The position numbers and the translations under genes are program-made. From Hippasteria phrygiana (Eukaryota; Echinodermata; Asteroidea; Valvatida; Goniasteridae), in contig JAZGUH010000225.1 in assembly GCA_037893225.1 (NCBI GenBank), positions 930,001-994,000 on the forward strand: 64,000 nt of DNA. The letters are read 5' to 3'. Below the pieces are notes generated by a model that was not told where the DNA came from, made no database searches, and was given only the letters and a program-made list of their open reading frames with translations. Positions 1 through 60,086 of this stretch are shown piece after piece (position 1 is the first letter of the stretch; the number at the start of each line of letters is the position of its first letter).

Positions 1-3000
1 ATTCTGGGAAGGGCAGGTAACCATGGCTTAAATGTGCATGCTGTTTATAAAAAGGGTTGATTTGTAGTCTTTTTTCAAGTCGCTAAATTATAAAACAATT
101 TTAATCGTAACATTCTTTTCAATATATCTACCGAACAAAACAAGATATTTTCAAAATGCTTTTTGTTATAGCTTTGGTATGTCTCAAAAATATGCCCTAA
201 AAAGCGAAAATTGTGTGACGTCATGATGACGTCATAAAAAAATATGTTTTTCAAGTCGCTAGAATATTGCCCATAGCATTTGTAAACGTTTTCTTTCTTA
301 CCGGCCACTTTGGCTACTTTTAAACTTGGCAGACACTTACCCCAACTGCTGAATTTTTGAATTTTGAAAATCGTAACATTCTTTTCAATATATCTAACGA
401 AAAAAACAAGATATTTTGAAAATTCTTTTTGTTATAGCTTTGGTATGTCTCAAAGATATGCCCTAAAAGGCGAAAATTGTGTGAGGTCATGATGACGTCA
501 TCAAAAACTGCTCACAATGTGTAACGAACGTTTACGTCATGATGACGTCATCACATGTCACGTGACGTCATCTTAAAGGGGCATTTTTCGAAGCCATATA
601 TAAACAAAAGTACAAGTCCGATTAAGTTGAAAAGTAATATCTAGGTAGCCCAGTAGGTTTATAGATGAAATTTGACTTGACATTATGATGACGTCATCAC
701 ATGTCCGTGACGTCATTTTAAAGGGGCAGTTTTTGAAGCCATATATAGACAAAGGTACAATTCCGATTAAGTTTTTTAAAAATACCTAGGTAGGCCAGTT
801 GGTTTATAGATGAAAATTGACATGACATGATGATGACGTCATCACATGCCACATGACGTCATCTTAAAGGGACAGTTTTTTAAGCCATATGAAAACAAAA
901 GTACAAGTCCGATTAAGTTGAAAAGTAATATCTAGGTAGCCCAGTACATATAGGTTTATAGATGAAAATTGACTTGACATTATGATGACGTCATCACATG
1001 TCACGTGACGTCATCTTAAAGGGGCAGTTTTTGAAGCTATATAAACAAAAGTATCAGTCCGATTAAGTTGAAAAGTAATATCTAGGTAGCCCAGTACATA
1101 TAGGTTTATATATGAAAAGTGACTTGACATTATGATGATGTCATCACATGTCACGTGACGTCATCTTAAAGGGGCTGTTTATGAAGCCATATATAAACAA
1201 AAGTATAAGTCCGATTAAGTTGAAAAGTAATATCTAGGTAGGTCAGCAAGTTTATAGATACGTTATGATGACGTCATCACATGTTACTACTACAAACAAC
1301 TTTAATTAATTTCAAAATTACCAAAGAAAACTGGCAGCAGCGCGATTCTTTGACAAACTTAAATTATTGTATTCACATTTCACATCCAAACTAAAAAAAC
1401 AAAAACGAAACAGCCCTGTGTTTGTCCACAAACACCAACCTCATGCCTCTAGTTTCTTTTTTTTTTTCTTTTTCAGCCAAATGCCCATAGCATTTGTGCA
1501 CGTTTTCTTTCTAACCGGCATTTTGGCCACTTTTAAGCAGCCGATTGGCTTTAAACTTGGCAGACACTTAGACCAACTGCTCAGAATGTCTGCCGAACTT
1601 TTACGTAATGATGACGTCATCACGTGATTTTTTATGAATTTTTGAATTTTGAAAATCGTAACATTCTTTTCAATATATCTAACGAAAAAAACAAGATATT
1701 TTGAAAATTCTTTTTGTTATAGCTTTGGTATGTCTCAAAGATATGCCCTAAAAGGCGAAAATTGTGTGAGGTCATGATGACGTCATCAAAAATTTTTTTT
1801 TTTTAAACGCATGTAAGGGTCAATCTGATTACAAAAATGTATACATTGAATTTTTCTGTACCTAATTCCAAAATTTCATGATCGTGGCTCACTCAAGTAA
1901 GAAATAACAGCCATTTCAAAATTTAGACCAAATTCAATATAACACAAAGGAATTCTGGGAAGGGCAGGTAACCATGGCTTAAATGTGCATGCTGTTTATA
2001 AAAAGGGTTGATTTGTAGTCTTTTTTCAAGTCGCTAAATTATAAAACAATTTTAATCGTAACATTCTTTTCAATATATCTACCGAACAAAACAAGATATT
2101 TTCAAAATGCTTTTTGTTATAGCTTTGGTATGTCTCAAAAATATGCCCTAAAAAGCGAAAATTGTGTGACGTCATGATGACGTCATAAAGAAATATGTTT
2201 TTCAAGTCGCTAGAATATTGCCCATAGCATTTGTAAACGTTTTCTTTCTTACCGGCCACTTTGGCTACTTTTAAACTTGGCAGACACTTACCCCAACTGC
2301 TGAATTTTTGAATTTTGAAAATCGTAACATTCTTTTCAATATATCTAACGAAAAAAACAAGATATTTTGAAAATTCTTTTTGTTATAGCTTTGGTATGTC
2401 TCAAAGATATGCCCTAAAAGGCGAAAATTGTGTGAGGTCATGATGACGTCATCAAAAACTGCTCACAATGTGTAACGAACGTTTACGTCATGATGACGTC
2501 ATCACATGTCACGTGACGTCATCTTAAAGGGGCATTTTTCGAAGCCATATATAAACAAAAGTACAAGTCCGATTAAGTTGAAAAGTAATATCTAGGTAGC
2601 CCAGTAGGTTTATAGATGAAATTTGACTTGACATTATGATGACGTCATCACATGTCCGTGACGTCATTTTAAAGGGGCAGTTTTTGAAGCCATATATAGA
2701 CAAAGGTACAATTCCGATTAAGTTTTTTAAAAATACCTAGGTAGGCCAGTTGGTTTATAGATGAAAATTGACATGACATGATGATGACGTCATCACATGC
2801 CACATGACGTCATCTTAAAGGGACAGTTTTTTAAGCCATATGAAAACAAAAGTACAAGTCCGATTAAGTTGAAAAGTAATATCTAGTTTCTTTTTTTTTT
2901 TCTTTTTCAGCCAAATGCCCATAGCATTTGTACACGTTTTCTTTCTTACCGGCACTTTGGCTACTTTTATGCTGCCGATTGGCTTTAAACTTGGCAGACA

Positions 3001-3389
3001 CTTGGACTAACTGCTCAGAATGTATGCCGAACATTTACGTCATGATGACGTCATCACGTGATTTTTTATGAATTTTTGAAATTTCAAAATCGTAAAATTC
3101 TTTTCAATATATCTAGCGAACAAAACAAGATATTTTCGAAATTCTTTTTGTTATAGCTTTGGTATGTCTCAAAGATATGCCCTAAAAAGCGAACATTGTG
3201 TGACGTCATGATGACGTCATCAAAAATGTTTTTTTTTTTTTACGCATGTAAGGGTCAATCCGATTACAAAAATGTATATATTGAATTTTCCTCTCCCTAA
3301 TTCCAAAATTTCATGATCGTGGCTCACTCAAGTAAGAAATAACAGCCATTTCAAAATTTAGACCAAATTCAATATAACACAAAGGAATT
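1..3389. repeat. 1.95-kb and 1.44-kb tandem duplicate units
   Basis: The sequence beginning ATTCTGGGAAGGGCAG recurs at 1, 1952 and 3390. Copy 2 is nearly identical to copy 1 for about 935 bp, then skips the segment matching 936-1448, joining at a shared CTAG. Confidence 0.85.
540..1290 (+). repeat. ~150-bp tandem sub-repeats
   Basis: Five consecutive units of about 150 bp, with the CACATGTCACGTGACGTCAT/CTTAAAGGGGCA junction at about 553, 697, 845, 995 and 1146. Each also contains a GTACAAGTCCGATTAAGTTG-like segment. Confidence 0.85.
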
Positions 3390-5142
3390 CTGGGAAGGGC
3401 AGATAACCATGGCTTAAATGTGCATGCTGTTTATAAAAAGGTTGATTTGTAGTCTTTGTTCAAGTCGCTGAATTTTAAAATTCTGTAAATCGTAACATTC
3501 TTTTCAATATATCTAGCGAACAAAACAAGAAATTTTCTAAATTCTTTTTGTTATAGCTTTGGTATGTCTCAAAGATATGCCCTAAAAAGCGAAAATTGTG
3601 TGACGTCATGATGACGTCATGAAAAAATTCTTTTTTTCAAGTCGCTAGAATATTGCCCATAGCATTTGTAAACGTTTTCTTTCTTACCGGCCACTTTACC
3701 TAATTTTAAACTTGGCAGACACTTACCCCAACTGCTCACAATGTGTGCCGAACTTTTACGTCATAATGACGTCATCACATGTCACGTGACGTCATCTTAA
3801 AGGGGCATTTTTCTAAGCCATATATCTACAAAAGTACAAGTTCGATTAAGTTAAAATGTAATATCTAGGTATTCCAGTAGTTTTATAAATGAAAATTGAC
3901 ATGACGTTATGATGACGTCATCACATGTGACGTCATCTTAAAGGGGCAGTTTTTGAAGGCGCATATCTACAGAAGTACATGTCCGATTAAGTTTAAAAGT
4001 AATATCTAGGTAGCCCAGTAGGTTTATAGATGAAAATTGACATGACATGATGATGACGTCATCACATGTCACGTGACGTCATCTTAAAGGGGCAGTTTTT
4101 GAAGCCATATAATATAAACAAAAGTACAAGTCCGATTAAGTTGAAAAGTTATATCTAGGTAGGTCAGCAAGTTTATAGATGAAAATTTATGTGACGTTAT
4201 GATGACGTCATCACATGTTACTACTACAAACAACTTTAATTAATTTCAAAATTAACATAGAAAACTGGCAGCAGCGCGATTGTTTGACAAACTTAAATTA
4301 TTGTATTCACATTTCACATCCAAACTAAAAAAACAAAAACGAAACAGCCCTGTGTTTGTCCACAAACACCAACCTCATGCCTCTAGTTTTTGTTCTTCTT
4401 TTTCAGCCAAAATGCCCATAGCATTTGTACACGTTTTCTTTCTTACTGGCACTTTGGCTACTTTTATGGTGCCGATTGGCTTTAAACTTGGCAGACACTT
4501 AGACTAACTGCTCAGAATGTCTGCCGAACATTTACGTCATGATGACGTCATCACGTGATTTTTTATGAATTTTTGAAATTTTAAAATCGTAAAATTCTTT
4601 TCCATATATCTAGCGAACAAAACAAGATATTTTCAAAATTCTTTTTGTTATAGCTTTGGTATGTCTCAAAGATATGCACTAAAAGGGAAAAAAATGTGTG
4701 ACATCATGATGACGTCATCAAAAATGTGCTTTTTTAAAACACATATAAGGATACGTCCGATCGTCATGAAAAGTGGTGGGTAGGTAGATACTGTCACTAG
4801 GATGCAAAATCCAAAGTGACGTCATAATGACGTCATCACGTGATTTGTTATGAATTTTTGAATTTTTAAAATTTGTAACATTCTTTTCAATATATCTAGC
4901 GAACAAAACAAGATATTTTCAAAATTCTTTTTGTTATAGCTTTGGTATGTCTCAAAGATATGCCCTAAAACGGGAAAAAATGTGTGACGTCATGATGACG
5001 TCATCAAAAATGTGCTTTTTTAAAACACATATAAGGATAGGTCCGATCGTCATGAAAAGTAGTGGGTAGGTAGATACTGTCACTTGCATGCAAAATCTGA
5101 AATGATGTCATGATGACGTCATCGTCAATTTTTTTGTGATTT

Positions 5143-8100
5143 TTGAAATTTTTGAAATTTCATTTTAATCACAATTTTACACAAAAAACAAAACAGCCCT
5201 GTGTTTGTCCACAAACACTGTACCAGATGTCTAGTTTTTTTTTTTTTTCCTTTTCAGACTTTTTGCCCATAGCATTTGTGCACGTTTTCTTTCTTACCGG
5301 CACTTTGGCTACTTTGGTACACCCGATTGCCTCTAAACTTGGCAGACACTTAGACCAACTGCTCAGAATGTATGCCGAACATTTACGTCATGATGACGTC
5401 ATCACGTGATTTTTTATGAATTTTTGAAATTTGAAAATCGTAAAATTCTTTTCAATATATCTAGCGAACAAAACAAGATATTTTCAAAATTCTTTTTGTT
5501 ACAGCTTTGGTAGGTCTCAAAGATATGCCCTAAAAAGGAAAAAAGTGTGTGACGTCATGATGACATCATCAAAAATGTGCTTTTTTAAAACACATATAAG
5601 AATAGGTCCGATCGTCATGAAAATTGGTGGGTAGGTAGATACTGGCACTAGGATGCAAAATCCAAAGTGACGTCATGATGACGTCATCACGTGATTTGTT
5701 ATGAATTTTTGAAATTTTGAAAATCGTAACATTCTTTTAAATATATCTGGCAAACAAAACAAGATATTTTCAAAATTCTTTTTGTTATAGCTTTGGTAGG
5801 TCTCAAAGATATGCCCTAAAAAGGAAAAAAATGTGTGACGTCATGATGACATCATCAAAAATGTGCTTTTTTAAAACACATATAAGGATAGGTCCGATCG
5901 TCATGAAAATTGGTGGGTAGGTAGATACTGGTACTAGGATGCAAAATCCAAAGTGACGTCATGATGACGTCATCACGTGATTTGTTATGAATTTTTGAAA
6001 TTTTGAAATCGTAACATTCTTTTAAATATATCTCGCAAACAAAACAAGAGATTTTCAAAATTCTTTTTGATACAGCTTTTGGTATGTCTCAAAGATATGC
6101 CCTAAAAGGCGAAAATTGTGTGACGTCATAATGACGTCATCAATTTATTTTTTTAACGCATGTAAGGGTCGGTCCGATTAAAAATTTATACATTGAATTT
6201 TTCTCTACCTAATTCAACAATTTCGTGATCGTGGCTCACTCAAGTATTAAGAAATAACAGGCATCTAAAAAATTGTGACCAAATTCAATATAACACAAAG
6301 GAATTCTGGGAAGGACAGAAACCATGGCTTTCATGTGGCATGCTGTCTATAAAGAGTTGATCTCTAGTCTTTTTTTCAAGTCGTTAGACAAGTCGTAGGC
6401 AGATACTTACACCAACTGCTCAGAATGTGCGCCGAACTTTTAGGTCATGATGACGTCATCACATGTCACGTGACGTCATCTTAAAGGGGCATTTTTGGAA
6501 ACCATATATCTACAAAAGTACAAGTCACATTAAGTTAAAACGTGGTATTTAGTTATGCCAGCATGTGTTAGATGAAAATGTATGTGACGTCATGGTGACG
6601 TCATGATGACGTCATCGGCTAATTTTCTATGATTTTTTTCATTTTTGAAATTTCATTTAAATCACATAATTTTACACAAAAAAACAAAACAGCCCTGTGT
6701 TTGTCCACAAACACTGCACCAGATGTCTAGTTTCCTTTTCAGACTTTTCCCCATAGCATTTGTGCACGTTTTCTTTCTTACCGGCACTTTGGCTACTTTG
6801 GTGCACCCGATTGCCTTTAAACTTGGCAGACACTTAGACAAACTGCTCAGAATGTGTGCCGAACTTTTTGGTCATGATGACGTCATCACGTGATTTTTTA
6901 TGAATTTTTGAAATTTGAAAATCGTAAAATTCTTTTTAATATATCTAGCGAACAAAACAAGATATTTTCAAAATTCTTTTTGTTACAGCTTTGGTAGGTC
7001 TCAAAGATATGCCCTAAAACGGAAAAAAGTGTGTGACGTCATGATGACATCATCAAAAATGGGCTTTTTTAAAACACATATAAGAATAGGTCCGATCGTC
7101 ATGAAAATTGGTAGGTAGGTAGATACTGGCACTAGGATGCAAAATCCAAAGTGACGTCATGATGACGTCATCACGTGATTTGTTATGAATTTTTGAAATT
7201 TTGAAAATCGTAACGTTCTTTTAAATATATCTGGCAAACAAAACAAGATATTTTCAAAATTCTTTTTGTTATAGCTTTGGTAGGTCTCAAAGATATGCCC
7301 TAAAAAGGAAAAAAATGTGTGACGTCATGATGACATCATCAAAAATGTGCTTTTTTAAAACACATATAAGGATAGGTCTGATCGTCATGAAAATTGGTGG
7401 GTAGGTAGATACTGGTACTAGGATGCAAAATCCAAAGTGACGTCATGATGACGTCATCACGTGATTTGTTATGAATTTTTGAAATTTTGAAATCGTAACA
7501 TTCTTTTAAATATATCTCGCAAACAAAACAAGAGATTTTCAAAATTCTTTTTGATACAGCTTTTGGTATGTCTCAAAGATATGCCCTAAAAGGCGAAAAT
7601 TGTGTGACGTCATAATGACGTCATCAATGTTTTTTTTTTAACGCATGTAAGGGTCGGTCCGATTAAAAATTTATACATTGAATTTTTCTCTACCTAATTC
7701 AACAATTTCGTGATCGTGGCTCACTCAAGTATTAAGAAATTACAGGCATCTAAAAAATTGTGACCAAATTCAATATAACACAAAGGAATTCTGGGAAGGA
7801 CAGAAACCATGGCTTTCATGTGGCATGCTGTCTATAAAGAGTTGATCTCTAGTCTTTTTTTCAAGTCGTTAGACAAGTCGTAGGCAGATACTTACACCAA
7901 CTGCTCAGAATGTGCGCCGAACTTTTAGGTCATGATGACGTCATCACATGTCACCTGACGTCATCTTAAAGGGGCAATTTTGGAAACCATATATCTACAA
8001 AAGTACAAGTCACATTAAGTTAAAACGTGGTATTTTGTTATGCCAGCATGTGTTAGATGAAAATGTATGTGACGTCATGGTGACGTCATGATGATTCTAT

Positions 8101-9690
8101 GATTTTTTTCATTTTTGAAATTTCATTTAAATCACATAATTGTACACAAAAAAACAAAACAGCCCTGTGTTTGTCCACAAACACTGCACCAGATGTCTAG
8201 TTTCCCATAGCATTTGTACACGTTTTCTTTCTTACCGGCACTTTGGCTACTTTGGTGCACCCGATTGCCTTTAAACTTGGCAGACACTTAGACAAACTGC
8301 TCAGAATGTGTCCCGAACTTTTTGGTCATGATGACGTCATCACGTGATTTTTTATGAATTTTTGAAATTTGAAAATCGTAAAATTCTTTTCAATATATCT
8401 AGCGAACAAAACAAGATATTTTCAAAATTCTTCTAGCGAACAAAACAAGATATTTTCAAAATTCTTTTTGTTATAGCTTTGGTATGTCTCAAAGATATGC
8501 CCTAAAAGGGAGAAAATGTGTGACGTCATGATGACATCATCAAAAATGTGCTTTTTTAAAACACATATAAGGATAGGTCCGATCGTCATGAAAATTGGTG
8601 GGTAGGTAGATACTGGTACTAGGATGCAACATCCAAAGTGACGTCATGATGACATCATCACGTGATTTTTTATGAATTTTTGAAATTTTGAAAATCGTAA
8701 CATTCTTTTAAATATATCTGGCAAACAAAACAAGATATTTTCGAAATTCTTTTTGTTATAGCTTTGGTAGGTCTCAAAGATATGCCCTAAAAAGGAAAAA
8801 AATGTGTGACGTCATGATGACATCATCAAAAATGTGCTTTTTTAAAACACATATAAGGATAGGTCCGATCGTCATGAAAATTGGTGGGTAGGTAGATACT
8901 GGCACTAGGATGCAAAATCCAAAGTGACGTCATAATGACGTCATCACGTGATTTGTTATGAATTTTTGAAATTTTGAAATCGTAACATTCTTTTAAATAT
9001 ATCTCGCAAAGAAAACAAGAGATTTTCAAAATTCTTTTTGATACAGCTTTTGGTATGTCTCAAAGATATGCCCTAAAAGGCGAAAATTGTGTGACGTCAT
9101 AATGACGTCATCAATTTTTTTCTTTTTACGCATGTTAGGGTCGGTCCGATTAAAAAAATGTATACATTGAATTTTTCTCTACCTAATTCAACAATTTCGT
9201 GATCGTGGCTCACTCAAGTATTAAGAAATAACAGGCATCTGAAAATTGTGACCAAATTCAATATAACACAAAGGAATTCTGGGAAGGACAGAAACCATGG
9301 CTTTCATGTGGCATGCTGTCTATAAAGAGTTGATCTCTAGTCTTTTTTTCAAGTCGTTAGACAAGTCGTAGGCAGACACTTACATCAACTGCTCAGAATG
9401 TGCGCCGAACTTTTACGTCATGATGACGTCATCACATGTCGTGTGACGTCATCTTAAAGGTGCATTTTTTGAAGCCATATATCTACAAAAGTACAAGTCA
9501 GATTAAGTTAAAACGTGGTATTTAGTTATGCCAGCATGTGTTAGATGAAAATTTATGTGACGTCATGGTGACGTCATTAGCTAATTTTCAATAATTTTTT
9601 TCATTTTTGAAATTTCATTTAAATCACATAATTTTACACAAAAAAAACAAAACAGCCCTGTGTTTGTCCACAAACACTGCACCATACATC
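5143..9690. repeat. Three ~1.49-kb tandem satellite units
   Basis: The landmark ATTCTGGGAAGGACAG occurs at 6302, 7788 and 9275 (spacing 1486-1487). The CAAAACAGCCCTGTG landmark begins each unit. One unit has lost about 30 bp. Divergence between units is low. Confidence 0.85.
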
Positions 9691-10330: not shown

Positions 10331-10610
10331 CCCCAGGGGTGCGTTACCCTTTGTCCATCTCGGAAATCTGATCTCACATTCTAGCTCTGGTCACCTCCCC
10401 TTTGCCAGCACCATGAATGACACCAACCCGCCGCTGGTCACCGGCCTAAATCAACTTATTTCTCGGGCCCAAACTGCAGGATGGGGAATACCCGGGCTGT
10501 ACCAATTTTTCTTAAGGGGTGGGGGGAACCTAGTCTATGGAATAGCCGCTCGTCGTGTAGGGGGAACCGTCATCAGGGAGAAAATACAGGATCATATTAT
10601 GTGCACAATT

Positions 10611-10647
10611 ACAACTGCACGTGGGGAGACACGCGGGGAGAACAGAT
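10611..10647 (+). repeat. LINE target site duplication, left copy
   Basis: ACAACTGCACGTGGGGAGAC and the following bases up to ...GAACAGAT are repeated exactly at 11390-11426, right after the (AAC)n tail. Confidence 0.85.
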
Positions 10648-11389
10648 GAAGTTAACAAATGAAGTTATCATGCATAGACTTAGACTTGGTGTATGTAAAG
10701 GCTTAAATAATTTCCTATATAGAATCGGCAAACATCCAAATGGATTATGTGAAGTATGCTCATGCACTGAGGATGTTAAGCATTTTCTCTTGAACTGTCG
10801 TAAATATAACGTCCAAAGACAAATCCTCATCAAATCACTTGGTCTCCCGCTCAATACCCAAATAACACTCCAACAACTTCTTGTACCCAAACAAAACAGC
10901 CAACATATTATCAAATATGTACGTAACTGTAATGTTAATATATAAGTCCCCGATACACCTCGCTGATGTTCTTGATATTGCATTATCTTCTGGGATGGGA
11001 AAGTGTAAATGGTTGGCTAGACATAGTATCACCAATCATCACCTGGAGGTGTTGCGGACCTGCAAATCAGCCGGCGGGGCCCGGGCCCTTAAATTGCATG
11101 GTACACGGTCCGACCTTGCAGGACACTTGTGATACTTTGTGTTTGGAGGATCATGAGCATTTTCCTTTTCCCTACCTAAATACCTGTATGTCCCCACGTT
11201 TGTAGTATCGATTCTATAGATTTCGAATAGCCCACAGAGTCGCTTATACCGCATGACCTATTCCACGTCACTATACCGCTCATCACGACCTGAATGTATA
11301 GTCGAGTTTTCTATCGTTAATGGCGCAAAGGGCATAATACAATGCCGTACGCGCCAACCCAATCTACAACAACAACAACAACAACAACA
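10648..11389 (+). mobile_element. 5'-truncated LINE (non-LTR retrotransposon)
   Basis: The open frame to 10945 encodes the C-terminus of a LINE ORF2: HRLRLGVCKGLNNFLYRIGK followed by a Cys/His cluster (LCEVCSCTEDVKHFLLNC) typical of RNase H-bearing or I/Jockey/R1-type elements. About 440 bp of 3' UTR and an (AAC)n tail follow. The insertion is bounded by an approximately 37-bp direct repeat (10611-10647 and 11390-11426), so it is a single retrotransposition event, truncated at the 5' side. Confidence 0.85.
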
Positions 11390-11762: not shown

Positions 11763-30918
<19,156 letters not shown>

Positions 30919-39186: not shown

Positions 39187-42100
39187 CTAGATGGGGGAAA
39201 GTCGTTTTAAATAGACAGTGCCATAGGATTTTTATAACATGAATACATGTTGACAAAGTATTTCCAGGATTTTTGTAACAATTCCACAAAGTCATTTCAA
39301 AATTTGTGTTTTTTTGTTCATGTTTGTGTTTCATATTCATGAGCCAAAGTGTGACGTCATTAGAGGCACAGCGGTGTCTCTATAGCATTGTTCACAGAAA
39401 ATCTTAAGCATACTAAAAAATTGACGAATGACTAAGTATTAAGTTCAGAATCTTTCCAACGGTGCCCACATGAGTGAGGCTTGTGACTTTTCATTTCATT
39501 TAAATCCATATTTTGACATTTAAATGTTTAATTTTGACATTTAAATGTTTAATATAAACTTGTGGCATGCGCATTGCAAATTTACACAACAAAACCAAGA
39601 CTAAGATTATCAACACTCCATTTACAAACAGGAGCTCGTAACACAATATGAATACGTGCTTATTTATTTTCTGTTTGATTTTGATTAATTAAAACTTGCA
39701 GTTTCTCCACGCATTTAACTGAGAATATTTGGTTGCAGAAAAATAGTATTCAATCACTGTTGAAAACTAAATTTATCAACTTTCTGATTAATCTTCCCCT
39801 TGAAGAACTACTACCTCTTCATTATCACAGGAATTTGCACGTTTAGGAAATTACTCTGAAAAACGATGCATCTGATATTACTGTTTAAACATTCTGAAGA
39901 TTACTGAAAAAACAAAAATCTTTTAAAACACTTAAATTTTAAGAAATCACAGACCTAAGACAAGTACAATACATTTGGCAGTCCACGCACAACATTGTTG
40001 CAATAAATTCCTTTGGGTCATGCAAATGCATGCATGGACATTAAGAGAATGCATCCACGTTTAATCGTACACCATCCCAGTGTACTTAAAGTACAAATAC
40101 CTACCATTCCGAGCATAAGACCCATGCACACTGTACAGACAGCAAAGAAGCCATAGACACTCCATGCTGGAAAGCCATATTCCGTAGTCATCAATAAATG
40201 AAAGGTCTGTCACAGAAGTCAGAAACAATCATTTAAACACACCTGTTTGACATTTGCATCAAAAATTCAAAATGGAGACAAACCACACGATTGTATCCTC
40301 ATCGAGTGATTCCCACAGTGTCGCCTCCCAGGTTGTATCGTAAAGTTGGGGCGTGGTCCCTGGCTGCACGGCATTATGGGTTAAAGAACAAAAACTCTGA
40401 CAATTTGGGAGACGCCAACATAAGGCAAGACAGCTTAGTTGGTATTCCAGAGGTCGCAGGTTCAAACCCCGCCCCTGCCAGTTTTCTTTGTTCACCTTGA
40501 GAATGGAGACAAGATTATGGTTATTACACTCATCAGATTTTATAGCATGCTATGCATAGTAATATAAAAAAACAAAGAGACAAATGAACTGAAGACGGAG
40601 GAAATGCCATATTTGGCCAAGTTGAGTGATCACCCGACTCTTTAGACTATAAATATCACCATAGCTACGTGTAAATCTGGACGAACAGATAAATAGCTTC
40701 ATACAGGGCGATTCCAAAAAGTATACCGAATCCGAGGACCATATATGTGACCCGCTCTGCAAAAAGGGCACATAAGTCGCTGTATGCTTTTACGAGTTAT
40801 GGGCCGTTCAATGTGAAGAGGGTGAAACATTCTTCAAACAAGTGATTTTGAAGGGAGGGGATTTTTTGCATCTTTGATACCTATATTATTCTATTTCATA
40901 ACCAAATTCTTTGATTTCAGCTAATAAAGTTGGAAAAAGAATGTGTTTTTGTCAAGTGCTTCCATCTATTGCTTTGCTTTTTGTTTTTTTAAATGGCTTG
41001 TTTCTCCTTAAGTCATTTCAAGAAATTCCTGAAAACAAACATGCAAATTTCAAAATATCTCGTGATTGCAAAATGCTACAGACCTCAGACATATACCATA
41101 TGAAAGCTTATAAAATGGCCTTTCCAGCCATATATAAAACACTCTTTTCAAATTTTGCAACATAAGTGCCCTTTTTGCAGAGCGGGTCACATATATCCAA
41201 TATTAATCAAACCGATGTCACCAAATTGCTATCATTGTGTAGCCTGAGATCTTCTCTTTAACCCCTTGATGAGTACGTTTTTTTTACGGGAGACGTCGGG
41301 GTGTCGCAGCGGCTCTGGCAGCCAAGCGAAACGGCCACAATGTGTTTGTGCAGTCAAGCGTAACATACACAATAATCCAACAATGGATTGAAACTGCACA
41401 AACAGCGGCTGTAGGCGTCATCCGGCCTGGTGCCACTGTTTCTTTTTTTTTTGCATCCACAGACGTCTTCCGTACACAAGACCACGGATTGCTGAGCATA
41501 AGGTGTCTGCGCAAAACTAGTTAAAACAAATTCTGGGTCAAAGTTTGTGTAGGATTGAGTGATGCTGACTGATGATTAATGTACGTGAAAAACATGCCTG
41601 CCTGCTCAAACACAGTCAACATCACATACAGTAATCCTACACTAATTTGGACGCATACTTTTTACTGGTTTTTACATGCTCAGTAATACGAGACCTGGGC
41701 CCAATTTTATGGCTCTGCTAACCACAGATTTCCGCGCTTACGATCACCATTTTGCGCTAACAACGGGATGTACGCATGCTCAGGAGCCAAAATTCCCCGC
41801 TAACACGTGAAATACGCTGCCGTAACCACAGAATTTTCTGCTACAGTAAGCGGGGATTTTTCGCTAACGGTAAGCAGAGCCATGAAATTGGGCCCTGATC
41901 TTGGTGAGTGACCTATCATTGTAAAGAGTTGTAATTTGTGTACTCGCCCTGTATGTGTATGAATGATGATTTTACATTAGACAGAAAGGGACAGAAAGAG
42001 AGTTCCGAAGTAAGGCAGTGCAAAAAGAAACTTTTCTTTATGCAAGTTCGCCCCAAACAAGGCTAAAAGCCACTCAAGGTATGGAGCTACAAGGAAAAGG

Positions 42101-48150: not shown

Positions 48151-49797
48151 CTAGAACGAAGCAACGATATTTACAAGAGTTAGAAACTACACGACATAGT
48201 GCATGTGTATTGTTTTACTTAGTTGTAGTAACTAAACCAGGGATTCCGCAAATGTCTATACATGTAGCTTGAAAACCTGTATAAATGTTCACTTTTATAG
48301 TTGGGAGGAAAACTCCAAGAAAATATTCGGGGGAAAATCAGAAAATGAACCCTGGCCTATAGAAATTTGTGTCCTCATATTATTTTGAAAGAAAAAATAA
48401 TAAATTGAGGAAATATTATTCACATTCTCCAGAATCTCCACCTTTGTTTTGAAAATCTTCACATACAAGTAGCACTAGGTTCCCAACAGAACAAATTTCT
48501 CTTCACGTTTTAGATCATGCAGGAATATACCTGCACAATTGGTATACAAATGCATATGGTATATGGGACAAACTCTAATCAATAATCATAACCCTAGTTC
48601 AGGCATGCAACTTGGAATTAACAAAAAACAAGGAAATTCCAATCTTGACAAGACTTTGTACAGTGTTTTTCAATTTTCAATGGCATAAGTGTGAAGTGAA
48701 AAAGGAGGAAATCAGCTGATCCGAGGAAAAGTTGCATGCCTGCTAGTTCCCGAACACTTCTACCTATATTTCTTGGGCATCCACTAAATAGTGAATTTCA
48801 CAAATGTGACCCGTCACCACAAATGGGCAGTAAAGTCATACCCCATCAATATTGAGATTTTATACTTAAATCATAGAGCATTTTATTAGCTTTAAAACAA
48901 GGGGTCAGCCATGTCAATTGGAGTTCTAGTTCAAAAGTTACAGCATTTTGAATGGATCCATTTCGGGCGCATTAATTAATCGCAAAGCTGAGAAATACTA
49001 GAGAAAACATATCGGGTGAATTTCATATTGCAGTACCATAAAAACAACATAGCAACCGACAGTTGTATTTGTCAAATCATTTTGAAACTGCACACATGTT
49101 CTTCAATGTTTACTTTATCAGCAAAATGCATTAGTTTAGTCAACAGGATCCACTGAGGGCAGGGGTGCCACAAGGGAAGGTGGTGTAACCGGGGGGTGGG
49201 GGGACACATTCCCTCCCCCTAAATAAATTGTTGACCCCCCCCCCCCCCCCAGTCTCCCCCTAGAAATTGTTTAAACGGAGTTGTAAACTAATAGTATTAT
49301 TAAGAAATATACTGTTGGGTGCCCCCACTATAATATCCAGCCCCCCACTCCCCCTTGCCCCCCACTCCCCCTTGCCCCCCACTCCCCCTTGCCCCCCCAC
49401 TCCCCCTTGCCCCCCCACTCCCCCTTGCCCCCCCACTCCCCCTTGCCCCCCCACTCCCCCTTGCCCCCCCACTCCCCCTTGCCCCCCCACTCCCCCTTGC
49501 CCCCCTCCCTCACCCCCCTCCCCCCAGGGGCGGATCTAGCCTTTCATTTAGAGAGGGGTTGTACCCGCCTATACAGTGTACAGTGTATGGACCAGCGGTA
49601 TACCAAACAAGGATGTGGTTTAGCATTGCTTATCACAACTTTGCTCAGCATCCCGGGGGGGGGGGGTTAGAACTCCCACAACCCCCCCCCCCCCCCAGAT
49701 CTGCCCCCTGCCTCCCCCACTCCCCAATACGAAGAGAGCCCTTCCTATGCCACTGCACACTTTTTTTGCAAATACGACGAAAGTAAAAATGCAATTC
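48151..49797. other. Non-coding stretch upstream of TMX1 CPAC exon
   Basis: Apart from the minisatellite and poly(C) tracts I see no coding exon. A lone TGTGACCCGTCACC near 48806 may be a single end of the TGTGACC family. Confidence 0.55.
49341..49505. repeat. 17-18-bp C-rich minisatellite
   Basis: About nine copies of CCCCCCACTCCCCCTTG with homopolymer length changes. Proline-rich ORFs across it are artefacts. Confidence 0.95.
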
Positions 49798-56455: not shown

Positions 56456-56499
56456 TTACTGCGGTGGCGAGGCGCTCGCGTGCGTGTAAAAATGTCGTC

Positions 56500-58039
56500 A
56501 TTTCCAATGTGAACAAAGAAACTGGCACGAGCGGGATTCGAACCTGCGACCTCCGGGTTACCGTACCGGCGCTCTACCAACTGAGCTATCTTGCCCTATG
56601 TTGGCGGTCTCCCAAATTGTCAGTATCTTTGTTCGAGTGGGCGCTAGTCAGAAGTCATAAACCCAGAATGCCGTGTAGCCAGGGATCACACCCAATTTTA
56701 CGATACAACCTGGGAAGCGACATTGTGGAGATCACTCAATGAGGATACGACTTTTTAATTTATAATACGTCACACAATCCACAAGGGAAACTGACTAGGT
56801 AAATTTGAATACATTTCCAATGTGAACAAAGAAACTGGCACGAGCGGGATTCGAACCTGCGACCTCCGGGTTACCGTACCGGCGCTCTACCAACTGAGCT
56901 ATCTTGCCCTATGTTGGCGGTCTCCCAAATTGTCAGTATCTTTGTTCGAGTGGGCGCTAGTCAGAAGTCATAAACCCAGAATGCCGTGTAGCCAGGGATC
57001 ACACCCAATTTTACGATACAACCTGGGAAGCGACATTGTGGAGATCACTCAATGAGGATACGACTTTTTAATTTATAATACGTCACACAATCCACAAGGG
57101 AAACTGACTAGGTAAATTTGAATACATTTCCAATGTGAACAAAGAAACTGGCACGAGCGGGATTCGAACCTGCGACCTCCGGGTTACCGTACCGGCGCTC
57201 TACCAACTGAGCTATCTTGCCCTATGTTGGCGGTCTCCCAAATTGTCAGTATCTTTGTTCGAGTGGGCGCTAGTCAGAAGTCATAAACCCAGAATGCCGT
57301 GTAGCCAGGGATCACACCCAATTTTACGATACAACCTGGGAAGCGACATTGTGGAGATCACTCAATGAGGATACGACTTTTTAATTTATAATACGTCACA
57401 CAATCCACAAGGGAAACTGACTAGGTAAATTTGAATACATTTCCAATGTGAACAAAGAAACTGGCACGAGCGGGATTCGAACCTGCGACCTCCGGGTTAC
57501 CGTACCGGCGCTCTACCAACTGAGCTATCTTGCCCTATGTTGGCGGTCTCCCAAATTGTCAGTATCTTTGTTCGAGTGGGCGCTAGTCAGAAGTCATAAA
57601 CCCAGAATGCCGTGTAGCCAGGGATCACACCCAATTTTACGATACAACCTGGGAAGCGACATTGTGGAGATCACTCAATGAGGATACGACTTTTTAATTT
57701 ATAATACGTCACACAATCCACAAGGGAAACTGACTAGGTAAATTTGAATACATTTCCAATGTGAACAAAGAAACTGGCACGAGCGGGATTCGAACCTGCG
57801 ACCTCCGGGTTACCGTACCGGCGCTCTACCAACTGAGCTATCTTGCCCTATGTTGGCGGTCTCCCAAATTGTCAGTATCTTTGTTCGAGTGGGCGCTAGT
57901 CAGAAGTCATAAACCCAGAATGCCGTGTAGCCAGGGATCACACCCAATTTTACGATACAACCTGGGAAGCGACATTGTGGAGATCACTCAATGAGGATAC
58001 GACTTTTTAATTTATAATACGTCACACAATCCACAAGGG
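56500..58039 (-). repeat. Left arm: five 313-bp units
   Basis: tRNA-like domains lie at 56524-56595, 56837-56908, 57150-57221, 57463-57534 and 57776-57847. The outer edge is the 3' end GTTTCTTTGTTCACATTGG plus AAA, as in the dispersed copies. Confidence 0.95.
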
Positions 58040-60072
58040 AGACCGCCAACATAGGGCAAGATAGCTCAGTTGGTAGAGCGCCGGTACGGTAACCCGGAGG
58101 TCGCAGGTTCGAATCCCGCTCGTGCCAGTTTCTTTGTTCACATTGGAAATGTATTCAAATTTACCTAGTCAGTTTCCCTTGTGGATTGTGTGACGTATTA
58201 TAAATTAAAAAGTCGTATCCTCATTGAGTGATCTCCACAATGTCGCTTCCCAGGTTGTATCGTAAAATTGGGTGTGATCCCTGGCTACACGGCATTCTGG
58301 GTTTATGACTTCTGACTAGCGCCCACTCGAACAAAGATACTGACAATTTGGGAGACCGCCAACATAGGGCAAGATAGCTCAGTTGGTAGAGCGCCGGTAC
58401 GGTAACCCGGAGGTCGCAGGTTCGAATCCCGCTCGTGCCAGTTTCTTTGTTCACATTGGAAATGTATTCAAATTTACCTAGTCAGTTTCCCTTGTGGATT
58501 GTGTGACGTATTATAAATTAAAAAGTCGTATCCTCATTGAGTGATCTCCACAATGTCGCTTCCCAGGTTGTATCGTAAAATTGGGTGTGATCCCTGGCTA
58601 CACGGCATTCTGGGTTTATGACTTCTGACTAGCGCCCACTCGAACAAAGATACTGACAATTTGGGAGACCGCCAACATAGGGCAAGATAGCTCAGTTGGT
58701 AGAGCGCCGGTACGGTAACCCGGAGGTCGCAGGTTCGAATCCCGCTCGTGCCAGTTTCTTTGTTCACATTGGAAATGTATTCAAATTTACCTAGTCAGTT
58801 TCCCTTGTGGATTGTGTGACGTATTATAAATTAAAAAGTCGTATCCTCATTGAGTGATCTCCACAATGTCGCTTCCCAGGTTGTATCGTAAAATTGGGTG
58901 TGATCCCTGGCTACACGGCATTCTGGGTTTATGACTTCTGACTAGCGCCCACTCGAACAAAGATACTGACAATTTGGGAGACCGCCAACATAGGGCAAGA
59001 TAGCTCAGTTGGTAGAGCGCCGGTACGGTAACCCGGAGGTCGCAGGTTCGAATCCCGCTCGTGCCAGTTTCTTTGTTCACATTGGAAATGTATTCAAATT
59101 TACCTAGTCAGTTTCCCTTGTGGATTGTGTGACGTATTATAAATTAAAAAGTCGTATCCTCATTGAGTGATCTCCACAATGTCGCTTCCCAGGTTGTATC
59201 GTAAAATTGGGTGTGATCCCTGGCTACACGGCATTCTGGGTTTATGACTTCTGACTAGCGCCCACTCGAACAAAGATACTGACAATTTGGGAGACCGCCA
59301 ACATAGGGCAAGATAGCTCAGTTGGTAGAGCGCCGGTACGGTAACCCGGAGGTCGCAGGTTCGAATCCCGCTCGTGCCAGTTTCTTTGTTCACATTGGAA
59401 ATGTATTCAAATTTACCTAGTCAGTTTCCCTTGTGGATTGTGTGACGTATTATAAATTAAAAAGTCGTATCCTCATTGAGTGATCTCCACAATGTCGCTT
59501 CCCAGGTTGTATCGTAAAATTGGGTGTGATCCCTGGCTACACGGCATTCTGGGTTTATGACTTCTGACTAGCGCCCACTCGAACAAAGATACTGACAATT
59601 TGGGAGACCGCCAACATAGGGCAAGATAGCTCAGTTGGTAGAGCGCCGGTACGGTAACCCGGAGGTCGCAGGTTCGAATCCCGCTCGTGCCAGTTTCTTT
59701 GTTCACATTGGAAATGTATTCAAATTTACCTAGTCAGTTTCCCTTGTGGATTGTGTGACGTATTATAAATTAAAAAGTCGTATCCTCATTGAGTGATCTC
59801 CACAATGTCGCTTCCCAGGTTGTATCGTAAAATTGGGTGTGATCCCTGGCTACACGGCATTCTGGGTTTATGACTTCTGACTAGCGCCCACTCGAACAAA
59901 GATACTGACAATTTGGGAGACCGCCAACATAGGGCAAGATAGCTCAGTTGGTAGAGCGCCGGTACGGTAACCCGGAGGTCGCAGGTTCGAATCCCGCTCG
60001 TGCCAGTTTCTTTGTTCACATTGGAAATGTATTCAAATTTACCTAGTCAGTTTCCCTTGTGGATTGTGTGAC
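58040..60072 (+). repeat. Right arm: six and a half 313-bp units
   Basis: tRNA-like domains lie at 58055-58126, 58368-58439, 58681-58752, 58994-59065, 59307-59378, 59620-59691 and 59933-60004. The outer edge stops inside the unit at GGATTGTGTGAC, not at the element's 3' end. Confidence 0.95.
58055..58126 (+). other. Representative tRNA-like Pol III domain
   Basis: The acceptor stem GGCAAGA/TCGTGCC pairs at six of seven positions. D and T arms are standard. The anticodon arm CCGGT-ACGGTAA-CCCGG has one mismatch, and would place GGT (Thr) as anticodon, but lacks the universal U33. It is therefore better read as a tRNA-derived Pol III promoter than a working tRNA gene. Confidence 0.75.
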
Positions 60073-60086
60073 GTAAAAATGTCGTC

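Follow-up and report, generated by a model that had tools for sequence, protein, structure and literature searches.

Animal retrozymes are short noncoding elements with units of 150 to 450 bp, ranging from dimers to long multimers, that use a circular RNA template and for which Penelope-like elements (PLEs) are the proposed helpers; in the available excerpts of the two accounts (PMC7229834, PMC7761336) their target duplications, when present, exceed 4 bp, and the first of these points to tRNA ligases for circularization. PLE mobilization is poorly understood, and a role for circles was proposed from hammerhead elements, as far as these excerpts go. In work on a purified Anolis PLE protein, both strands of the DNA were cut and extended, and reverse transcription began at two neighboring positions within the protein's own RNA, the interval between them corresponding to the genomic 'tail' (PMC11167929). 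Rotifer PLE inserts can end in inverted pseudo-long terminal repeats (pLTRs), most commonly head to head and with a 31-bp tail on one, and pLTRs are able to carry an unrelated gene in trans (PMC3846280, in the portion available). Here, we describe an element family with a 313-bp unit, found in a 64,000-nucleotide stretch of the sea star Hippasteria phrygiana (contig JAZGUH010000225.1, positions 930,001 to 994,000; hereafter the window), which combines features of animal retrozymes, of PLEs, and of tRNA-derived short interspersed elements (SINEs) in a form that we regard as new.

We propose that this is a nonautonomous, tRNA-headed retroelement, copied from a circular monomer with starts at two sites, A and B, at a staggered break, and mobilized by PLEs; we judge this account to be probable. 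The window contains a 3.6-kb block with the following parts (coordinates are those of the window).

56486–56499, unstranded: left copy of the target-site duplication GTAAAAATGTCGTC, 14 bp
56499–58043, − strand: left arm, 4.9 units, sense leftward, perfect to 58040 with one mismatch beyond; outer 3′ end at unit 114–115 (A)
56523–57847, − strand: five tRNA-like domains (56523–56595, then every 313 bp; ARAGORN, Rfam)
58037–58040, unstranded: central junction of the two 5′ ends, with common GGGA
58037–60075, + strand: right arm, 6.5 units, sense rightward; outer 3′ end at unit 158–161 (B), the last 3 bp common to the duplication
58055–60005, + strand: seven tRNA-like domains (58055–58127, then every 313 bp; ARAGORN, Rfam)
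60073–60086, unstranded: right copy of the target-site duplication GTAAAAATGTCGTC

An earlier, sequence-only reading had described two opposed arrays of one 313-bp unit with five and seven tRNA-like domains, and both descriptions are borne out: Tandem Repeats Finder (TRF) returns a period of 313 with 100% matches and no indels, and ARAGORN and Rfam agree on five domains on the − strand and seven on the + strand. Its estimate of about 12 copies holds for the domains, whereas the block totals 11.4 units, and the 14-bp repeat that it saw bounding the whole block begins two bases further left (56486) than its block start of 56488. The repeat overlaps the unit by only 1 bp on the left and 3 bp on the right, and the flanks are not part of the unit. 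Each of the 12 domains scores 57.2 bits against the Rfam tRNA model with no mismatch among them, and RNA polymerase III (Pol III) A and B boxes can be read by eye, their activity being predicted only. The sense of both arms is outward, such that the 5′ ends meet at the center and the 3′ ends are outermost. The two arms are identical to each other, and the block is a recent event of the proposed kind of insertion. A functional tRNA gene cluster was considered and rejected: by eye, the anticodon is GGT, position 33 is a C, and the acceptor stem is imperfectly paired, and multimers are present at dozens of dispersed sites.

The genome containing the window (944 Mb in 1285 contigs) was searched at the DNA level with the unit; the best 40 of 814 first-look candidates were scored and 37 regions were taken. 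Omitting two that repeat a third (L034 and L035, repeats of L033) and adding the window block gives a sample of 36 blocks, which are the best-matching, and hence the youngest, part of the family. We note that the region of the repeats (G000:C375:634500–658600, L033 to L035) contains four near-identical copies of one block plus flanks, a recent local segmental duplication. Copy number, orientation, and flanking duplications, the tabulation that the sequence-only reading had suggested, were recorded for all 36. Blocks contain from 1.4 to 15.4 units (median, 3.7), with 172 units altogether when arms of >97% identity are counted, and at the loci examined the family is usually multimeric and often head to head; the multimer in the window is real, but it is not a one-off product of an ordinary SINE.

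A word of 12 to 16 bp is common to the two flanks in 28 of the 36 blocks, compared to five of 1260 control pairings of left and right flanks from different blocks; the block duplications exceed chance. Their lengths are mostly 13 bp (13 blocks) or 14 bp (11 blocks), with two of 16 bp and one each of 15 and 12 bp, the longer ones possibly including overlap with the unit, and the duplicated stretch is AT-rich. A GTTAG half-site (at least four of five bases) immediately adjoins the duplication on its outer side in 14 of the 56 sides when left and right are pooled, against counts of 0 to 3 for the other offsets printed. This motif was read from those same sites and is a description rather than an independent test, but it is a pattern such as a dimeric endonuclease might leave. 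These tabulations also bear on the concern that the block is an artifact of assembly, long identical arrays being prone to collapse or duplication. With different flanks at all 36 blocks, matched duplications in 28, and variants private to single blocks, we give this a negligible probability, although exact unit numbers may still be wrong.

Two recognizable outer ends are present in 24 of the 28 blocks with a duplication of at least 12 bp, and in 23 of these 24 one end is at A (unit 108–116) and the other at B (unit 156–164), about 47 nucleotides apart. The exception, L010, has an A end and an end at unit 145, and there are no A/A or B/B blocks among the 24. The A end is on the right in 14 and on the left in 10, and outer junctions overlap by 0 to 6 bp. 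Four blocks with a duplication are one-ended, three with A only (L016, L042, and L045) and one with B only (L027); L016 is counted here because its apparent second end is a match of only 9 nucleotides. The sequence-only reading had missed that the outer ends take two fixed positions in the unit, with A and B each represented once in a two-ended block, and also a block anatomy that appears to be that of PLEs rather than of SINEs driven by long interspersed elements (LINEs). Large inverted arrays inside a target duplication could suggest a foldback-type DNA transposon, with inverted repeats built of tandem repeats. However, the termini differ (unit ∼114 versus ∼160) and are not inverted repeats of one another, and blocks such as L016, L042, and L045 have a single recognizable arm; the asymmetric termini rule this candidate out, and its probability is vanishingly small.

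The inner (5′) ends are scattered, with a cluster at unit 160–173 (9/63; binomial P = 0.002) and a second at unit 291–304 (10/63), both windows having been chosen after the data were seen. The clusters possibly reflect an RNA processing site, a protein bound at B, or pauses of the reverse transcriptase. The inner ends lie within 12 nucleotides of each other in 5 of 25 two-arm blocks, as might be if a single cDNA folded back and copied itself to give head-to-head arms, a route published as a proposal for the inverted junctions of rotifer PLEs (PMC3846280, in the available portion). Such self-priming predicts equal outer ends and one meeting position, whereas A is paired with B at the outer ends and the inner ends mostly differ. 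Priming of one arm on the other is contradicted by the A + B pairing in most blocks, and we regard this explanation as hardly credible.

Variation among units indicates what was copied at each insertion. Units of the 36 blocks were compared with the family majority, excluding 14 nucleotides at outer ends, 6 nucleotides at inner ends, and arms of ≤97% identity. Of the 41 sites that vary and for which at least two units can be compared, 17 have the variant in every unit of its own block, 23 have it in exactly one unit, and just one has it at an intermediate frequency (L012, eight of nine units). The block-wide variants include cases of 15/15, 12/12, 12/12, 11/11, 11/11, and 8/8 units, with three resting on two units only, and they are present in both arms wherever both cover the site; eight of the 23 single-unit variants sit at sites covered by only two units. 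Six variants are private to one locus among the 36, including that of L012, the other five being at 12/12, 12/12, 8/8, 3/3, and 3/3 units, while variants at unit 106, unit 291, and others mark subfamilies. A single unit was the template, because a change in one parent unit cannot otherwise spread to all daughter units. Furthermore, the 179 unit-to-unit passages in young blocks show no variable seam, and the template was therefore closed or endlessly repeated; just one indel recurs along the full length of an arm, an extra A at unit 170 that all eight units of L045 contain. The anatomy shows that each new block was read round and round from one monomer without a seam. Each insertion was copied from a single 313-nucleotide monomer with joined ends, and therefore probably from a circle. 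The monomer bottleneck together with the seamless units would be an indirect sign of circular RNA in this family.

The two fates that the sequence-only reading had offered for the block, insertion as a multimer or growth of a single insertion inside its own duplication, are separated by these data. Recurrence of like anatomy at many sites, and variants that are block-wide in both arms where covered, support the former and not the latter. Tandem arrays can expand and homogenize, and gene conversion between inverted arms is known in general, such that an insertion of one or two units might have grown in place by unequal exchange and been homogenized by conversion between its arms. Against this, block-wide variants occur in both arms at many loci with one intermediate frequency in 41 sites, the window arms are identical over 3.6 kb, and an older array in the window (28832–29405) is not homogenized but has separate changes in each unit. 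We consider growth in place to be improbable.

The bottleneck likewise bears on linear templates. Had the RNA been linear with several units, or had copying jumped from the end of one template to the next, we would expect a mixture of units or joins that vary. A tRNA-derived SINE driven by a LINE, with twin priming on linear multimers, would account for the tRNA head, and 5′ inversions joined over short overlaps are reminiscent of LINE twin priming. However, linear multimers would not yield one-monomer bottlenecks, there are two fixed alternative 3′ ends with one per side, and no poly(A) or simple-repeat tail was seen at the tabulated block ends; we view a LINE-driven origin as very improbable.

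Multimeric insertion looks to be a long-standing mode. We took 12 older loci from about 40 scored, and nine of these have a continuous stretch longer than one unit; still older relatives, among the best 40 of 5216 first-look candidates, include tandem and −/+ pairs by coordinates. Young and old copies differ at the Pol III terminator: a sense TTTT is present in none of the 196 units in the trimmed arms of the 36 young loci, which have TTT only after the tRNA, whereas TTTT just after the tRNA is present in 11 of 18 readable old copies (20 taken). Pol III could therefore read through the young units, and loss of the terminator may have favored multimers.

The absence of TTTT is equally compatible with our main rival explanation, in which arrays give rise to 313-bp DNA minicircles, Pol III transcribes them round and round, and the linear multimeric RNA serves as the PLE template. 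A DNA minicircle predicts the one-monomer bottleneck and seamless units equally well and makes RNA ligation unnecessary. On the other hand, a hypothetical minicircle is required for every insertion, TTTT follows the tRNA in 11 of the 18 readable old copies, and some relatives recovered with the same query are still tandem by coordinates. We regard the DNA minicircle as unlikely, although clearly the strongest of the alternatives.

In the account that we favor, a circular RNA copied by PLE proteins, the 313-nucleotide unit would comprise the tRNA-like domain with its Pol III boxes, a body of ∼220 nucleotides, and the ∼47-nucleotide tail between starts A and B. Read-through transcripts would be cut once per unit and ligated to a closed RNA circle, by host RNA processing (perhaps by tRNA-processing enzymes) or by an unrecognized ribozyme. 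A GIY-YIG PLE would supply the endonuclease and reverse transcriptase, presumably as a dimer acting on both DNA strands, with copying by rolling-circle reverse transcription. The block anatomy itself shows entry at a staggered break of mostly 13 to 14 bp, copying from A on one side of the break and from B on the other, where both ends are readable, and two cDNAs that meet head to head and join. The RNA nature of the circle, the mode of its closure, and the help of PLEs are what we infer beyond this. A narrower version is more tentative, and we would put it at somewhat below an even chance. In this version the element would be a ribozyme-free counterpart of retrozymes, with a one-unit RNA circle closed by host enzymes of tRNA processing acting through the tRNA-like domain of the element. 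It would also be the first SINE-like element known to travel with PLEs, copied by a PLE reverse transcriptase dimer that simultaneously starts at A for one DNA strand and at B for the other, both copies running round the same circle.

Candidate helpers are present in this genome. We found at least 30 matches to GIY-YIG PLEs with 150 of 1100 candidates scored, and both PLE frames that were scanned contain RVT_1 and GIY-YIG domains. One of these PLEs has 4622 protein relatives, and among the 120 listed most are unnamed, the closest named ones being from the echinoderms Asterias, Apostichopus, Strongylocentrotus, Amphiura, and Lytechinus. Matches to the type I hammerhead number at least 74 (74 of 126,038 candidates scored), several in −/+ pairs, such as L080 to L085. 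Six head-to-head short copies bearing hammerheads, chosen for lying in such pairs, have one arm that is longer outward, by ∼51 nucleotides in one and ∼63 nucleotides in five (by eye), and from their motif these copies are putative PLEs. Most of the six adjoin (AT)n stretches. Two copies of the element sit directly at a PLE end: block L037 has the end of a GIY-YIG PLE immediately next to its duplication, and at L079 a PLE fragment and an element copy use a common target, CTAATATTTTT, beside GTTAG. Among 38 loci compared, PLE ends are present at two, L037 and L019, the L019 fragment being ∼48 bp away. When the element tail was aligned locally with 34 loci at or next to GIY-YIG matches, scores stayed close to the shuffled maximum except at L079, where the match is a stretch of the element itself, and L059, an AT-rich match (score of 49 versus a shuffled maximum of 39). 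Near one GIY-YIG match on the window's contig (L063, 1135–1180) there is a near-threshold match to the histone 3′ stem-loop (32.5 versus 34 bits).

Several observations weigh against the proposed mechanism. First, the duplications, mostly of 13 to 14 bp, differ from published PLE duplications, which are 8 to 10 bp or absent in the available portion of PMC3846280, and the start site of PAc is alike on both strands (PMC11167929), whereas the two sides of our element differ. Second, in a shuffle test against two PLE tails, and those two only, similarity to the element tail fell short of significance, with P values of 0.40 and 0.13. Third, eight of the 36 blocks lack a duplication of at least 12 bp (L011, L013, L015, L017, L021, L024, L040, and L041), and two of these with two arms are not A + B: L011 has A and unit 2, and L040 has unit 192 and A. 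Among the 12 older loci, only three have a duplication of ≥12 bp, namely L089 and L092, both A + B, and L093, a single arm with a B end. Fourth, a hammerhead or other Rfam ribozyme was sought in the unit and rejected, with none among Rfam matches at E ≤ 10 for three units and with both strands of the majority unit lacking a CTGANGA core; circle closure is therefore without a known agent. A hairpin in the body is paired in 98% of cells, but its covariation is no greater than that of shuffles. Finally, the circle and its transcription by Pol III are predicted from DNA.

Five further copies of the family are in the window, three of them with a visible duplication, of 14 bp, of 11 bp, and of 10 bp with a single mismatch:

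14696–14792, + strand: old fragment, unit 77–172; a duplication was looked for and none found
17204–17512, + strand: old copy that goes round the unit roughly once (from ∼166 to ∼158); a duplication was looked for and none found
26647–27104, + strand: older insertion, a short inverted piece and then 1.2 sense units (match 26660–27092); 14-bp duplication AACAATTTATTTAG at 26647–26660 and 27091–27104
28832–29405, − strand: older insertion, ∼1.9 tandem units; degenerate 10-bp duplication with one mismatch
40271–40512, + strand: older copy of less than unit length (match 40277–40516); 11-bp duplication AATGGAGACAA at 40271–40281 and 40502–40512

Exons at 25521–25925 and 27577–27780 by eye resemble those of a prostaglandin-reductase-type gene, and the copies at 26.6 to 29.4 kb are situated in and around that gene. 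Elsewhere in the window, positions 539–9114 are occupied by arrays of 141- to 150-bp and 286-bp units rich in the palindrome GATGACGTCATC (TRF), an inverted relative of which, with 75 to 81% identity, is at 14977–16143. Within the latter, a 322-bp unit that also contains this palindrome is repeated 2.1 times at 15244–15930, with no target duplication clearly distinguishable from unit sequence. An open frame at 10421–10945 resembles by eye the C-terminal part of a non-long terminal repeat (non-LTR) retrotransposon protein, and TRF reports a GGTT repeat of 31 copies (27274–27397) and an 18-bp C-rich repeat of 9.3 copies (49341–49505).

Dozens of recent, clean insertions allow start sites, break geometry, and template to be read from DNA alone. 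The family suggests that a closed template and capture by PLEs can occur without a hammerhead; with it, the 'circle first' model of retrozyme-like elements can be put to the test. Among the literature matches listed, which covered few subscription journals, none described an element like this one, with a tRNA and without a hammerhead, and none described PLEs mobilizing a SINE. Exact 25-base pattern scans of viral and of bacterial and archaeal contigs gave no match, nor did the antisense frame of the unit when it was searched against proteins.

Compared with animal retrozymes, the element likewise forms short noncoding multimers with target duplications, a proposed PLE helper, and a proposed circular template, and its tandem 313-bp units, without an open reading frame in the 36 blocks, fall within the retrozyme range of unit lengths. 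The differences are that retrozymes are defined by a hammerhead ribozyme, none being detected here, and are said to lack promoters, whereas the tRNA-like domain of the element contains Pol III boxes; the available excerpts (PMC7229834, PMC7761336) showed no retrozymes with head-to-head arms that end at two fixed positions. Like tRNA-derived SINEs, it combines a head that resembles a tRNA and contains the A and B boxes of Pol III with many dispersed copies and the lack of an open reading frame. In place of monomers that run from a tRNA head to a LINE-like tail, its copies are circularly permuted multimers with PLE-type A and B ends and no A-rich or simple-repeat tail seen. The TRIMp3 elements Helenus and Ajax are likewise retroelements other than SINEs that contain the Pol III promoter of a small RNA gene, but they are LTR elements with a primer binding site and polypurine tract, and Ajax has 5-bp duplications (PMC10886601, available portion); membership in that group was rejected, the 12- to 16-bp duplications in 28 of 36 blocks being unlike LTR-type integration. 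The likeness to PLEs lies in the tandem and head-to-head inverted copies with a tail of ∼47 nucleotides on one inverted end, and in paired starts ∼47 nucleotides apart on both strands, which match the two-start 'tail' signature. The element departs from PLEs in having up to 15 units per block, in the regularity of its A + B pairing (23 of 24 two-ended blocks with a duplication), and in having neither a detected hammerhead nor an open reading frame: one with reverse transcriptase and GIY-YIG domains was not found, the unit being too short for it and the window's list of open reading frames offering only a frame that enters from the flank.

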